This document shows positions 4 through 33,224 of a DNA stretch of 41,715 nt, piece by piece. Where the stretch lies: positions 1 through 41,715 of the IMG/VR virus record IMGVR_UViG_3300024346_000162, one strand, 5' to 3'. Each line of letters starts with the position of its first letter. The stretch's first letter is position 1. Origin of the DNA: a virus. The position numbers and the translations under genes are program-made. The notes below the pieces were generated by a model. That model had not been told where the DNA came from. It searched no databases and saw nothing but the letters and a program-made list of their open reading frames with translations.

Positions 4-1131
4 TTAGATGGTATCTTCATTGTCGATGGGAGCGGCTTCGATCGGAGTGTCATCGTCAACCTTGTCGAACAAGTCGGCAAAGGCGACGCGAGTAACTTCG
101 TCGAACCGGTTGATGCAGAGCTCTACGGCTTTCTTCTTGTCCTTGAAGATCGAGAAGGCTCGTACGATGTGAACCAACCGCCGAGTCGTGATGGTCTCGT
201 CCACACCGCCATCAGCGAAGGTACGACGGATGGCGTCGGCCCACTTGACCAAGGTGTCGCAGAAGACCTCGTCGATGCAACCATAGGAGGTCATCAGGTT
301 CATGACGATCTTCTTCTCAGCAGCCGGGGTTGGGTACTCCTGGTTGAAGGTGACGGCGAATCGCTCGAGGAAGGCCTCGTTCAAGATGTTGGTGCCGATG
401 TAACGACCATCATCTGAACCTTTACCCTTGGTGTTCGCGGTAGCGAAGATCGTAAAGCCGGGCGCGGGATAGATCATCTCGTTCTTGAGCTTGAAGTAGT
501 AGGGCTTACCCTCAAGGATGGGCTGGAGGCAGAGCAATGTATTGGCACCACCAGCGTCGATCTCGTCAAGCAGCAGGGCGATACCGGCTCGCATCGCGAT
601 CAACACCGGACCCTCTACGATCACGACGTTTCCATCGATGAGCGTCTTAGACCCGATGAGCTGGTCCTCGTCAGTCATCATGTTGAGGTTGACTCGGATC
701 AAGGGACGCTTGTTCTTGGCAAAGATCTGTTCCACCATCGTGGACTTCCCGTTTCCAGTTGGTCCCGAGATGTAAGAGGGATAGAACTGCAGAGACTTCA
801 CGATGACTTCTACGTCCTTGTGGTTGCCAAAGGGCACGTAGTTGGAGTCAACTCGTGGCACCAGTGAGGAGTCGATGGGAGTGTGTTCGATGACTGGTGC
901 TGGAGCTAGTGTAGGCCGCTGTGCCCTGGGTTGGATCGCGTGGACTTGAGCCGTCATGTCGATCGCGTAGACACCACGCGAGATGCGTGACTGAGGATTG
1001 CTCAGCCAGCTTGGGTACTTTGTGGTACCCAGTATCTGCATGACCTCGGTAACCTGTGCTCGAGTGCACTGGTTGCTCGTGATGGTGTCAGGGAACCGCG
1101 CGTAGAGCGCGTCAATGAAAGTTTGTTGCAT
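4..1131 (-). CDS. MoxR/CobS-type AAA+ ATPase
   Basis: The 375-residue protein has Walker A GPTGNGKST (residues 123-131), Walker B LLLDEID (186-192), sensor TAN (231-233) and an arginine-finger-like ERF (256-258). This is the layout of the MoxR/CobS AAA+ group, which works as hexameric rings with VWA partner proteins. Residues 1-60 look like a small helical, possibly winged-helix, domain. The open frame reaches 1167, but that ATG lies inside the TATAAT box of a promoter. The ATG at 1131 follows an AAGGA Shine-Dalgarno about 10 bases upstream, so it is taken as the start. T4-like cyanophages carry a related gene called cobS (cobaltochelatase subunit). Here the nearby VWA-metallopeptidase gene suggests a MoxR-VWA remodelling machine equally well. 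The AAA+ call is firm; the substrate is unknown. Confidence 0.85.
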   Translation of the reverse strand: MQQTFIDALYARFPDTITSNQCTRAQVTEVMQILGTTKYPSWLSNPQSRISRGVYAIDMTAQVHAIQPRAQRPTLAPAPVIEHTPIDSSLVPRVDSNYVPFGNHKDVEVIVKSLQFYPSYISGPTGNGKSTMVEQIFAKNKRPLIRVNLNMMTDEDQLIGSKTLIDGNVVIVEGPVLIAMRAGIALLLDEIDAGGANTLLCLQPILEGKPYYFKLKNEMIYPAPGFTIFATANTKGKGSDDGRYIGTNILNEAFLERFAVTFNQEYPTPAAEKKIVMNLMTSYGCIDEVFCDTLVKWADAIRRTFADGGVDETITTRRLVHIVRAFSIFKDKKKAVELCINRFDEVTRVAFADLFDKVDDDTPIEAAPIDNEDTI

Positions 1132-1165
1132 GATAACCAAGTTTCCTTGTTGATTTGATAAAACC

Positions 1166-1194
1166 ATTATACCCAGATCTGGAATTACTGTACA
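1166..1194 (-). promoter_or_regulatory. Promoter TGTACA-N17-TATAAT for the AAA+ gene
   Basis: On the minus strand a TGTACA -35 box (1194-1189) and a TATAAT -10 box (1171-1166) are separated by exactly 17 bases. Transcription would start near 1159 and run into the AAA+ gene at 1131. The same architecture recurs upstream of the 57-residue gene, gp55 and uvsY. Confidence 0.75.
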
Positions 1195-1198
1195 CAGG

Positions 1199-1300
1199 CT
1201 ATGCTAGTAGTTGACTAAAACGGTCAACTACTTCAAGTGCACCAGGTGTCATGGAGGCCTGAAAAGTGGGGATCCACCCACTTCTGGTGATTCTATGCAT
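1199..1300 (-). CDS. Possible 33-residue protein between VWA and AAA+ genes
   Basis: A short frame starts at ATG 1300 and ends at TAG 1199-1201. It has an AGGAAGG Shine-Dalgarno 7 bases upstream, better than many genes here. The product begins MHRITRSGWIPT and ends FSQLLA, with no recognisable domain. A longer version from ATG 1336 (45 residues) has no clear ribosome site. It fills most of the otherwise empty gap 1132-1343. However, its 3' end is encoded by the hairpin and runs up to the promoter of the next gene, so coding by chance is possible. Confidence 0.35.
   Translation of the reverse strand: MHRITRSGWIPTFQASMTPGALEVVDRFSQLLA
1206..1232 (-). terminator. Stem-loop upstream of the AAA+ promoter
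   Basis: AGTAGTTGAC (1206-1215) and GTCAACTACT (1223-1232) form a perfect 10-bp stem with a 7-base loop. On the minus strand no U-tract follows, so it is not a classical intrinsic terminator. It could be an operator, a processing site or a weak terminator for the VWA transcript. Confidence 0.45.
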
Positions 1301-1343
1301 TCTAGCACCTTCCTGCATTCTAAGTTGTTGATTCATATGGCTT

Positions 1344-3530
1344 TTAAGCCACTTGGGCAATGAACTTGCTTAGGACGACCCGTGAGGAGATTCCTGCGTT
1401 CATGGCAGCAGTAAAGTTCTTAGCGATCTGTCTAGAGTTCATCTTGGAGGTAGCCACGACATCCGTGGACTTGAGCTTGACGTTGCTGGACAGGATATAC
1501 ATCTCGTCAACCCCCGGCATGTTGTCGATAGCCACACATGAAGTCTTACGCATCGTCGACACGATCTCTTCGGCATTGATCTGCCTGAAGAGTGGCGAAT
1601 CAGGATCAAAGTTGTCACGAATAAACATCTTAATGTCACGTATCGTAGGCGTCGTGATGAAGAACCGGATGTTCGTGGTGTTGTACTGATCTTTGATGAC
1701 CGACATCAATGTACCAGTCTGGAGCCGACCATTATTTTCAAGGTCATATTGCTTCTTAGTCACTGTGTCGATAAGATAGGACTTTTGTCTACGCCTAACA
1801 CCTTGGAATCCGTAACCCTCCCAGATTGGGCCGTTCTTAACAGGATTACTCTGGTTGCAGATCGTGCCACCATTGCCATCTGTAAGTACGATCAAGGAGT
1901 TCTTCTCGGTCTGATTGGCCATGATGAACTTACCCATGTAGGTAGTCAGAAATATTAATGCTTCGTTCAAGGGTGTACCATTGAGAAGGTACTTGTCAAT
2001 ACAGTACTGAGGTTGACTCAACAGCGAAGACATCATCGTATTGAACTCAACTGAGGACATCTTGTTCGAGAAGAGTTCAAGCATCGATAACTTGTAGTCA
2101 CACCCTATGCCAGTGACGTTCTCAGTCTTGTTCTCAATCATTTCTTGGTAGGTCTTACCCTCATGTTGATACCCATCTGAGAAGGCAAACACTTGGTAGG
2201 GGATGTTGGTACGATGACAGAACATCGCAAGGTTGATGACCTGTTCTACTGTCTCTTGGATGCAATTGGTCATAGAACCCGACCAGTCAAGGAGGAACAC
2301 CATGCCGTGTTTCTGTCCGTCCATGACTTGCATGACCTGCTTGAAGAGGTCATCTTTCAATTTGTAGGCATAGAGCTTACGCGAGTCGAGTTGACCGAGC
2401 TTTGCAACCTTAGAGCGCTTGTAGGCCGTAGCCGACTTACGCATCTCAAATTCCTTGATTAGGTAACCAACGATCCGGTTTGAAGACGACTTGAACGCCT
2501 TGATCCTATCACCGTTCCACTCGATGCGTTCATCCAACGCTTCAGAGCGCCTGAAGTCTTTTAGGATCTGAGTGTAGGGGACTATCACGTCTGAACCACT
2601 CGTCAAGTTGAACCGCGGTTCGTAGTACTTGATGATCAGGTTCTCGTCAGCACGCAGTTCAAGCTTGTCATCAAAGCTACGCATCGTGGTAGGCTCGTCA
2701 AGCTCAGGCTTTTCTTCTTCTTGCAACTCAGGCTTATCGCTACCCTTGGTACCATTACTAGGTATGTTGAAGGGCTTGCTATCTTCGCCCTCTTCTTCAT
2801 CGTCCTCTTCAGACTCGGCCGGCTCAGAACCTTGATCGCCTTCTTCATCGCAGTCTTCGTCTTCTTCGAAGGTGTCACCATCTTCTTCAGACTCTTCGCC
2901 GGATTCTTCACCTGATTCTTCTTCGGCTAGCTTCTCTAGTGCCTTCTCCTTAGCCTCCTCTTCTTCCTTCTGCTTTTGCAGACTGTAGGTGTAGATTTCT
3001 TCGGCTAGAGCGATGACCTCTTCAACCGTCTCAGTGCGATCCACACGACGAAGCATGTTGGTCTCAACGTCGTTGAACTTAACACCACAGTTGAACCCCA
3101 CCTTGTAGTAGAGGTTGATGCGGTCGATCAACTGGAACTCATTGACGTCAGCGCCGCGAACACCAAAGAAGTCACGTTCATTGACGCTTTTGTAACCAGC
3201 CGCGAAGAACTTACGCGAACCAGGATACCGGACCTTCATCTTACGCTCGATGCGGACGTCTTCAAGGACGTTGGCGTAGGACTTGAGGTGGCGACGACCC
3301 TTCTCAAAGACATTGCTGTACTCGTCGTAGCCAGTGAATAGGGCATGTCCCACTTCGTGAAGAAGAAGCATTTCCTCCTCAGCATCCAACATGTCCTGCC
3401 ATCTGGGCAGCATCAGCGTACGGTTCTTGATGTCAAAGGACGCGGTCTTAACGTTCGACCGGATCACGTTGATGTTCTCGGTCGCCAAGAGGCGAGCCGA
3501 CTGGTCTCGTGTTTGTGTTGTGCTTGTCAT
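1344..3530 (-). CDS. Metallopeptidase-like / VWA-domain protein with acidic linker (CobT-like)
   Basis: The 728-residue protein has three parts. Residues 1-185 hold a zincin-like motif HEVGH (58-62) followed by NVLEDVRIE (87-95), which could give the third metal ligand. Residues about 188-282 are an extreme Glu/Asp/Ser linker. Residues about 408 to the end form a VWA domain with a complete MIDAS: DWSGS (415-419), then TPLNEAL and LTDGNGG. This matches DUF2201/CobT-like partners of MoxR/CobS AAA+ ATPases. The frame stays open to 3590. ATG 3530 is chosen because it sits one base after the stop of the 57-residue gene (TAACATG). The neighbours suggest it is the adaptor, and perhaps protease, of the AAA+ ring encoded next. 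The substrate is unknown. Confidence 0.8.
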   Translation of the reverse strand: MTSTTQTRDQSARLLATENINVIRSNVKTASFDIKNRTLMLPRWQDMLDAEEEMLLLHEVGHALFTGYDEYSNVFEKGRRHLKSYANVLEDVRIERKMKVRYPGSRKFFAAGYKSVNERDFFGVRGADVNEFQLIDRINLYYKVGFNCGVKFNDVETNMLRRVDRTETVEEVIALAEEIYTYSLQKQKEEEEAKEKALEKLAEEESGEESGEESEEDGDTFEEDEDCDEEGDQGSEPAESEEDDEEEGEDSKPFNIPSNGTKGSDKPELQEEEKPELDEPTTMRSFDDKLELRADENLIIKYYEPRFNLTSGSDVIVPYTQILKDFRRSEALDERIEWNGDRIKAFKSSSNRIVGYLIKEFEMRKSATAYKRSKVAKLGQLDSRKLYAYKLKDDLFKQVMQVMDGQKHGMVFLLDWSGSMTNCIQETVEQVINLAMFCHRTNIPYQVFAFSDGYQHEGKTYQEMIENKTENVTGIGCDYKLSMLELFSNKMSSVEFNTMMSSLLSQPQYCIDKYLLNGTPLNEALIFLTTYMGKFIMANQTEKNSLIVLTDGNGGTICNQSNPVKNGPIWEGYGFQGVRRRQKSYLIDTVTKKQYDLENNGRLQTGTLMSVIKDQYNTTNIRFFITTPTIRDIKMFIRDNFDPDSPLFRQINAEEIVSTMRKTSCVAIDNMPGVDEMYILSSNVKLKSTDVVATSKMNSRQIAKNFTAAMNAGISSRVVLSKFIAQVA

Positions 3531-3531
3531 G

Positions 3532-3705
3532 TTACTCAAAGAAGAGTTCAAAGAGGCGGGTCTCGGTGACACCGATGAAGGCCGCTTCACGAACAGCCAT
3601 GTCGCGCAGGAGTCGAGCTTTGTCTGCTGCCATGGCCGTGGGACGTCCCTCCATCAGGGTACGTGCTTGGCACAGGAGGGAGAATGCGGGGGCGAGAGCT
3701 GACAT
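3532..3705 (-). CDS. 57-residue protein heading the VWA unit
   Basis: The frame starts at ATG 3705, about 24 bases after the inferred transcription start of the second cassette promoter, and ends in TAA one base before the VWA ATG. The product begins MSALAPAFSLLCQARTL and ends TRLFELFFE. It is predicted mostly helical and amphipathic, with no signal or family that I recognise. The ribosome site (AAGAAAG) is weak. Tight coupling to the VWA gene and first position behind a dedicated promoter argue that it is real and works with the VWA/AAA+ pair. Confidence 0.65.
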   Translation of the reverse strand: MSALAPAFSLLCQARTLMEGRPTAMAADKARLLRDMAVREAAFIGVTETRLFELFFE

Positions 3706-3735: not shown

Positions 3736-3764
3736 ATTATACCCAGATCACGAATTGTTGTACA
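3736..3764 (-). promoter_or_regulatory. Promoter TGTACA-N17-TATAAT for the 57-residue/VWA unit
   Basis: On the minus strand TGTACA (3764-3759) and TATAAT (3741-3736) are 17 bases apart. The first ATG downstream is at 3705. Confidence 0.75.
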
Positions 3765-3775
3765 CAGGCTATGCT

Positions 3776-3802
3776 AGTAGTTGACCATTCTTGTCAACTA
3801 CT
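3776..3802 (-). terminator. Stem-loop after gp46
   Basis: The stem (AGTAGTTGAC / GTCAACTACT) is identical to the one at 1206-1232, but the 7-base loop is quite different. This indicates selection on the stem. It lies 5 bases past the gp46 stop, so it may end or process the gp47-gp46 transcript. No U-tract follows. Confidence 0.45.
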
Positions 3803-7292: not shown

Positions 7293-7322
7293 ATTATACA
7301 ACAATCCAACCATCCTGTACAA
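7293..7322 (-). promoter_or_regulatory. Promoter TTGTACA-N17-TATAAT for gp55
   Basis: On the minus strand the -35 TTGTACA (7322-7316) and -10 TATAAT (7298-7293) are 17 bases apart. It would drive gp55, the 51-residue gene, gp47 and gp46. Confidence 0.75.
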
Positions 7323-7350
7323 TCTTGTACCTCAATATTAGATTGTACAG
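7315..7350. repeat. 11-bp inverted repeat joining two divergent -35 boxes
   Basis: CTGTACAATCT (7315-7325) and AGATTGTACAG (7340-7350) are perfect inverted copies separated by 14 bases. Each arm contains the -35 box of one of two back-to-back promoters. A further TTGTAC lies between them at 7325-7330. The symmetry suggests a binding site for a dimeric regulator or a shared activator. Confidence 0.7.
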
Positions 7351-7372
7351 ACTCTAGCAGTGATGGTATAAT
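7343..7372 (+). promoter_or_regulatory. Plus-strand promoter TTGTACA-N17-TATAAT
   Basis: TTGTACA (7343-7349) and TATAAT (7367-7372) are separated by exactly 17 bases, as in the minus-strand copies. Transcription would start near 7379 and run rightward. No plus-strand gene follows, so the product would be a small RNA or a transcript antisense to the 120-residue gene and uvsW. Confidence 0.6.
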
Positions 7373-9735: not shown

Positions 9736-9765
9736 ATTATAACATGGACAAGATATATTGTACAA
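9736..9765 (-). promoter_or_regulatory. Promoter TTGTACA-N17-TATAAT for uvsY-uvsW
   Basis: On the minus strand TTGTACA (9765-9759) and TATAAT (9741-9736) are 17 bases apart. The -35 box begins immediately after the stop codon of the upstream tail gene. The ATG of uvsY is 27 bases beyond the -10 box. Confidence 0.75.

Positions 9766-23858: not shown

Positions 23859-33224
<9,366 letters not shown>

Follow-up and report, generated by a model that had tools for sequence, protein, structure and literature searches.

The 41.7-kb window analysed here (virus record IMGVR_UViG_3300024346_000162 of IMG/VR) is a fragment of the genome of a marine T4-like phage. Its left end contains, all on the minus strand, gp46, a 57-residue open reading frame (ORF), a gene for a VWA protein, and a gene for an AAA+ ATPase. 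The AAA+ and VWA genes, which are labelled cobS and either cobT or peptidase in related phages, are real and intact. On balance, we favour the interpretation that the pair is an ATP-driven protein remodeller of the MoxR/zincin-VWA type, probably a protease, which functions in phage replication and recombination and is not a cobaltochelatase. The MoxR/CobS-type AAA+ ring would act together with the VWA protein, to which it is expected to bind. If midasin and NorQ-NorD are a guide, the C-terminal VWA domain with its metal-ion-dependent adhesion site (MIDAS) may grip a substrate or peptide, and the AAA+ ring would probably pull the protein held by the MIDAS. The N-terminal domain is gluzincin-like, with an HExxH...E site, and is followed by a flexible acidic linker; a zincin tethered in this manner could cut the held protein. 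The machine would act while phage DNA is replicated and recombined, on a substrate of either phage or host origin.

The VWA protein starts at ATG 3530, and not at GTG 3590, because the former agrees with the N-terminus of the family in the alignment. The zinc-binding HEVGH motif and the EDVRIE segment downstream of it contain residues that are invariant among 57 relatives, and Glu90 of the latter is likely to be the third zinc ligand. The protein thus has the HExxH motif and a likely distal ligand, the features by which zincins are recognised. All 95 phage proteins whose N-terminus is intact, which were gathered using patterns free of HExxH, contain an HExxH motif followed by ED.RI[ED]; two further proteins, the N-termini of which are cut at contig ends, were left outside this set. 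The MIDAS of the VWA domain is complete, with Asp415, Ser417, Ser419, and Asp551 invariant among the 57 relatives and Thr519 conserved in more than 90% of them. The full MIDAS, the HEVGH motif, and the acidic linker described in an earlier note, which was made from the letters of the window alone, were all confirmed.

The structure of the VWA protein predicted by AlphaFold2 has a mean predicted local distance difference test (pLDDT) score of 78 over its full length, and the N-terminal domain modelled alone reaches a pLDDT of 93 and a predicted template modelling score of 0.87. The linker is predicted to be disordered from approximately residue 206, with pLDDT below 50 at residues 207–221 and 225–272. 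The full-length model matches VWA domains, including that of NorD, and its best match is the MIDAS domain of human midasin (MDN1; 8ql1_C, E=3.5e-5). The first nine fold matches of the N-terminal domain in the PDB, with E-values no better than 0.1, are all zincins, among them selecase, abylysin, ArdC, myroilysin, and PprI, and among viral models the domain matches phage and halovirus proteins annotated as CobT or VWFA. The only direct sequence match of the VWA protein to CobT in the PDB is to the acidic linker (E=0.11) and was rejected, as was a low-complexity match to huntingtin. Membership in DUF2201 was also rejected, since neither PF13203 nor PF09967 was matched at E-values up to 0.1 by the window protein or appeared among the families listed for the 57 relatives.

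The AAA+ ORF was called at 4–1167 by the ORF program, but its start was set to ATG 1131, because the upstream ATG 1167 is part of the −10 box in the promoter spanning 1166–1195. The ATPase contains the Walker A motif GPTGNGKST, Walker B motif LLLDEID, sensor-1 motif ATAN, and arginine finger ERF, and this complete set is kept across 82 phage homologues, so that the ATPase is intact, as the earlier note had stated. AAA_5 and CbbQ_C are matched above the Pfam cut-offs. The nearest sequences in the PDB are midasin, which is the closest, and CobS (9ujv, E=1e-27). With a MoxR/CbbQ-type AAA+ ATPase encoded next to a MIDAS-bearing VWA protein, the pair has the make-up of a MoxR AAA+ with a VWA partner.

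The pair was named cobST in a 2021 PLoS Biology study, which regarded 'peptidase' as a mistake (PMC8651126), and earlier papers described the AAA+ gene as the vitamin B12 gene cobS (PMC3037559, PMC2984593). According to this explanation, the pair takes the place of CobST, or of ChlID, from the host and forms a mosaic cobaltochelatase with host CobN, which raises B12 for nucleotide synthesis (PMC8651126 and earlier literature on auxiliary metabolic genes). The AAA+ protein does belong to the CobS group, but its score against the CobS equivalog TIGR01650 is 101.2 bits, below the cut-off of 558.55. The VWA protein does not match the CobT equivalog TIGR01651 (cut-off 759 bits), against which an authentic CobT used as a control scores 1005 bits, and the CobT profile PF06213 is matched by only one of the 57 VWA relatives, with E=0.03, which does not place the family in PF06213. 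In an unrooted tree with long branches, the phage AAA+ proteins form a clade (100/99) apart from the CobS clade (100/100).

A CobN partner could be supplied by the host, and many of the phages that carry the pair infect cyanobacteria. Searches for CobN gave nothing in the window, which is a fragment, in nine related virus records, or in cyanophage records. A tblastn search, used because megablast was uninformative for CobN, detected CobN in 2 of 50,697 phage records, neither of them from a cyanophage. The two records, OQ572414.1 and MT837301.1, belong to Pseudomonas phage Y13 and a gut phage, and at least one of them may be the product of contamination or misassembly. Pelagimyophages generally carry cobS and cobT (PMC7029224), and Pelagibacter phage HTVC008M has the AAA+/VWA pair with the HEVGH motif, yet the SAR11 clade is reported, at the level of the clade, to be auxotrophic for B12 (PMC9296465). 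Furthermore, 5 of the 13 bacterial genomes that carry the conjugative-element version of the pair have no CobN match. Together with the zinc site, which is conserved in the phages and absent from CobT, these results make a viral CobST highly unlikely. The doubt that the earlier note cast on the cobalt-chelatase label is strengthened by the lack of CobN and by the retention of the HExxH histidines in the relatives, and the protein-processing MoxR-VWA reading that it offered instead is the better supported one, with catalysis as its conditional part.

Cellular relatives of the VWA protein detected in a genome scan keep the same zinc site and are mostly located in modules that contain a YqaJ exonuclease, a CobS-like ATPase, WGR, DUF3150, the VWA protein, and RadC. 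We take these modules, from their gene content, to be SXT-type elements. VWA relatives are also present in 1236 plasmid records, 982 of which are typed as conjugative. A near-identical YqaJ/CobS-like/WGR/DUF3150/zincin-VWA/RadC module (for example, L059:254-8562; L055-L095) occurs in Shewanella, Vibrio, Marinomonas, Yersinia, and other genera.

The comparison of profiles connects the phage protein to CobT through the conjugative elements. The phage and conjugative-element VWA proteins align with a probability of 99.6% (hhalign, E=2e-24), and the conjugative-element protein aligns with CobT over its length at 99.8% (E=1e-28); in the latter alignment, residues that do not bind zinc stand opposite the HExxH columns. 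None of 33 authentic, alphaproteobacterial CobT proteins has HExxH in the corresponding position, where the sequence is approximately GAADAVALRLRxHD and both histidines and the catalytic glutamate are gone. One CobT frame with HExxH (L240) was rejected as an out-of-gene translation that is not at the homologous place. Four genomes carry both the zinc-site protein and an authentic CobT. Of the two profile comparisons that the earlier note had put forward, the one with DUF2201 gave no match, and the one with CobT gave distant homology by way of the conjugative-element proteins, which is also the homology that speaks for a viral CobST. Because the zinc site is kept in phages and conjugative elements and gone from CobT, 'peptidase' is the better label for the N-terminal domain of the VWA protein. 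CobT, in turn, looks like a homologue that lost the zinc site, with loss being a more plausible direction than gain. A broader view, which we put forward tentatively, is that the 'cobS/cobT' genes of T4-like marine phages are the phage branch of a MoxR/zincin-VWA remodelling protease for DNA replication or recombination that is found across mobile elements, and that CobST is its descendant or sister with a dead protease site.

The pair is located between the genes of the 46/47 nuclease and those of the 45/44 clamp system. Relatives of the VWA protein were identified in 463 phage records and those of the AAA+ protein in 562, with identical counts for the two under three labels (Synechococcus 365, 'Cyanophage' 61, and Prochlorococcus 24). 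The neighbourhood survey suggested in the earlier note showed that the order gp46-VWA-AAA+-gp45-gp44 recurs over approximately one hundred loci: among 104 loci from viruses and from phages in metagenome-assembled genomes, it is present in most of the contigs that are long enough, and some are rearranged. Annotated cyanophages have the same order.

The AAA+ and VWA genes are probably transcribed from sigma70-type, non-late promoters, as judged from the promoter core, the enrichment of TATAAT boxes, and the lack of enrichment of late boxes. The two promoters are parts of a near-identical 51-bp cassette, which has two matches in the window and none expected in shuffled sequences. The core TTGTACA-N17-TATAAT has 7 matches in the window, where 1.56 are expected, and is also positioned 5' of UvsY (9736–9765) and gp55 (7293–7322). 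It is therefore a phage-wide promoter class that is not special to the pair. Matched timing of the two genes, which the earlier note derived from what it saw as identical promoters, was not confirmed as something special to them. Across the family, TATAAT boxes are enriched 5' of the VWA gene (31 of 90, 11.5 expected) and of the AAA+ gene (36 of 66, 10 expected). Late TATAAATA boxes are not enriched, with 2 of 90 upstream of the VWA gene and 0 of 66 upstream of the AAA+ gene, and in the window the exact late box TATAAATA on the minus strand is restricted to the region of the structural genes. Non-late promoters would indicate early or middle expression; no transcriptome naming these genes was found in the literature.

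The promoters and gene order also bear on virion maturation, which was among the roles that the earlier note had suggested. A MoxR and metallopeptidase-vWA pair of the same architecture in jumbo phages was proposed to be virion-assembly machinery, and in this explanation the pair would be an assembly chaperone and a protease that matures structural proteins (PMC7824862). The same paper cites a MoxR-vWA pair of an archaeal virus that is needed for tail assembly, and the large virions of T4-like phages require processing. However, neither gene in the window has a late promoter, both lie within the replication and recombination cluster, and homologues are carried by SXT/IncC-type elements, which produce no virions. 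Methylophilales phage Melnitz makes a related virion without the pair. A role in virion maturation is therefore disfavoured, and we regard it as improbable.

Another explanation is host takeover or counter-defence, in which the machine would eliminate or cleave a protein of the host, for example a repressor, a nucleoid protein, or a defence factor. This explanation is consistent with the non-late promoters, with a family common to phages and conjugative elements, both of which are exposed to the same host defences, and with the weak fold matches to the ArdC antirestriction and PprI metalloproteins. However, the phage proteins have no PADLOC match. Counter-defence genes are usually variable. 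That the pair is very conserved in position and nearly universal among myo-cyanophages (PMC9983427) points to a core role rather than one in an arms race, and we consider a counter-defence function unlikely, although less so than virion maturation. The remodelling of proteins in the replication phase remains the probable role, because of the promoters, the neighbouring genes, and the copies on conjugative elements, which adjoin YqaJ/RecT recombination genes in 12 of 23 loci.

Several points weigh against this interpretation. We infer both the catalysis and the binding of the two proteins to each other from sequence, and a zincin fold can be structural instead of catalytic. The matches of the N-terminal domain to zincins in the PDB are weak by E-value, the best being 0.1. 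The direct similarity of the phage and CobT profiles is not significant (hhalign probability of 5%), and the link between them runs via the conjugative-element proteins. Melnitz (L248), the capsid protein of which is among those closest to that of the window phage, has the replication cluster from gp46 to gp45 without the pair, and the pair is therefore not essential to that cluster in every host. The shared neighbourhood in T4-like phages is probably the result of one ancestral insertion, so the association with replication and recombination is drawn from only two independent contexts, phages and conjugative elements, and is suggestive.

The earlier note had placed the 57-residue ORF in a three-gene module with the pair. 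The ORF does end 1 nt before the ATG of the VWA gene, but its product has no match in Pfam, PHROG, or PADLOC and no significant homologue across the 104 related loci, and close relatives contain unrelated ORFs of 51–66 residues in the same slot. The three-gene module was rejected since the protein is unconserved, and the gene is outside the module. The C-terminus of the protein resembles the N-termini of AAA+ proteins weakly (E=0.85).

Coordinates of the features of the pair and its surroundings are listed in the table below. The hairpins upstream of the two promoters were rejected as intrinsic terminators because they lack a T-run; with their shared stem, they are perhaps an operator or a processing site. 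An exact TTGTACA-N17-TATAAT sequence is also present on the plus strand at 7343–7372, between gp55 and a 122-residue ORF, with no obvious plus-strand gene, and may drive an antisense or small RNA. An RNA starting from it as a candidate was rejected, with no Rfam or tRNA match and a z-score of −0.10 for the downstream fold.

Features of the AAA+/VWA locus at the left end of the window
Feature	Position	Strand	Basis or remark
MoxR/CobS-type AAA+ ATPase, 375 residues (phrog_249; phage 'CobS')	4..1131	-	phrog_249, E=6e-100
Promoter of the AAA+ gene, GTGTACA-N17-TATAAT	1166..1195	-	one mismatch to TTGTACA-N17-TATAAT
Hairpin upstream of the AAA+ promoter, 10-bp stem, 7-nt loop	1206..1232	-	stem shared with 3776..3802
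Zincin-VWA protein, 728 residues (phrog_459; phage 'peptidase'/'CobT')	1344..3530	-	phrog_459, E=8e-163, residues 24-748 of the longer ORF
MIDAS motif 1, DWSGS (D415, S417, S419)	2274..2288	-	rest of the site: T519, D551
Acidic linker, residues ~185-283, 45% D/E	2682..2978	-	composition
EDVRIE, residues 90-95	3246..3263	-	no change at N87, E90, D91, or R93 among 57 relatives
HEVGH zinc-binding motif, residues 58-62	3345..3359	-	H58, E59, H62 invariant in 57 relatives
57-residue ORF in the VWA leader	3532..3705	-	variable passenger, not a conserved component
Promoter of the 57-residue ORF/VWA transcript, GTGTACA-N17-TATAAT	3736..3765	-	pattern match
Hairpin upstream of the 57-residue ORF/VWA promoter, identical 10-bp stem, different loop	3776..3802	-	

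In the remainder of the window, UvsW, gp55, gp47, and gp46 were identified by profile matches, and UvsY and the structural genes from position and sequence. The capsid protein is closest (60–62%) to those of HTVC008M, Melnitz, and cyanophages. Collagen-like proteins with G-x-T repeats encoded at 29486–32880 on the minus strand are probably tail fibres, and the long plus-strand ORFs facing them are probably repeat artefacts. A 1887-residue protein with repeated similar segments (23859–29522, minus strand) is probably an adhesin or a tail fibre.

In hundreds of related phages, the two genes bear vitamin B12 labels, and cobS serves both as an auxiliary metabolic gene for B12 and as a marker of myo-cyanophage communities (PMC9983427, PMC2984593). 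Should cobS encode the motor of a protease-remodeller instead, a standard element of the metabolic interpretation of marine virus-host systems would be wrong, and a function that is among the few near-universal ones of these phages would lack an explanation. The comparison also offers a concrete origin for CobT, as a dead zincin. In the open-access literature, with subscription journals outside the coverage, no paper joining CobT with a zincin was found.

The cobS-peptidase pair is known to be core in T4-like cyanophages (PMC3037559, PMC8651126). The undescribed system envisaged in the earlier note is thus not borne out: both large proteins belong to large named phage families, and the architecture was named in 2021 (PMC7824862). 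What is well supported is a correction, from CobT to zincin-VWA, within a known core pair. The literature holds two unreconciled readings, cobST and MoxR with a metallopeptidase-vWA protein, and the evidence supports the second architecture. Profile matches and gene order place the window pair with the cyanophage pair (phrog_249, 'CobS/porphyrin biosynthesis', and phrog_459, 'peptidase'; T4-GC 150 and 146), which has the same genes, domain order, and gp46 to gp45/gp44 order, with identities of approximately 30–35% for the VWA and 45–57% for the AAA+ protein. The window differs in that its phage is nearer by capsid to HTVC008M, Melnitz, and uncultivated marine phages, and in the added 57-residue ORF and duplicated hairpin-promoter cassette.

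In group 2.2 jumbo phages (PMC7824862), the corresponding pair, likened here by description only, has the same architecture, a MoxR ATPase adjacent to a vWA protein whose N-terminal part is a metallopeptidase, for which the conserved HExxH...E site is the counterpart in the window; virion assembly was proposed for it, whereas the promoters and context in the window point to the replication phase. The CobS/DUF3150/VWA module of SXT-type integrative and conjugative elements and conjugative plasmids resembles the phage pair in its CobS-group ATPase, in its protein with HExxH, ED.RIE, and MIDAS motifs, and in its location near recombination genes, but its VWA protein is shorter (~551 residues) and it has additional WGR, DUF3150, and RadC genes. 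Cobaltochelatase CobST shares the CobS-group ATPase and a VWA protein that has both an acidic linker and a MIDAS; CobT has no HExxH, the phage genomes lack CobN, and the phage proteins fall short of the equivalog cut-offs. Midasin (Rea1/MDN1) is the closest to the pair in both AAA+ sequence and VWA fold among PDB entries, but neither midasin nor NorQ-NorD has a zincin domain, and midasin is a single giant chain that functions in ribosome assembly.

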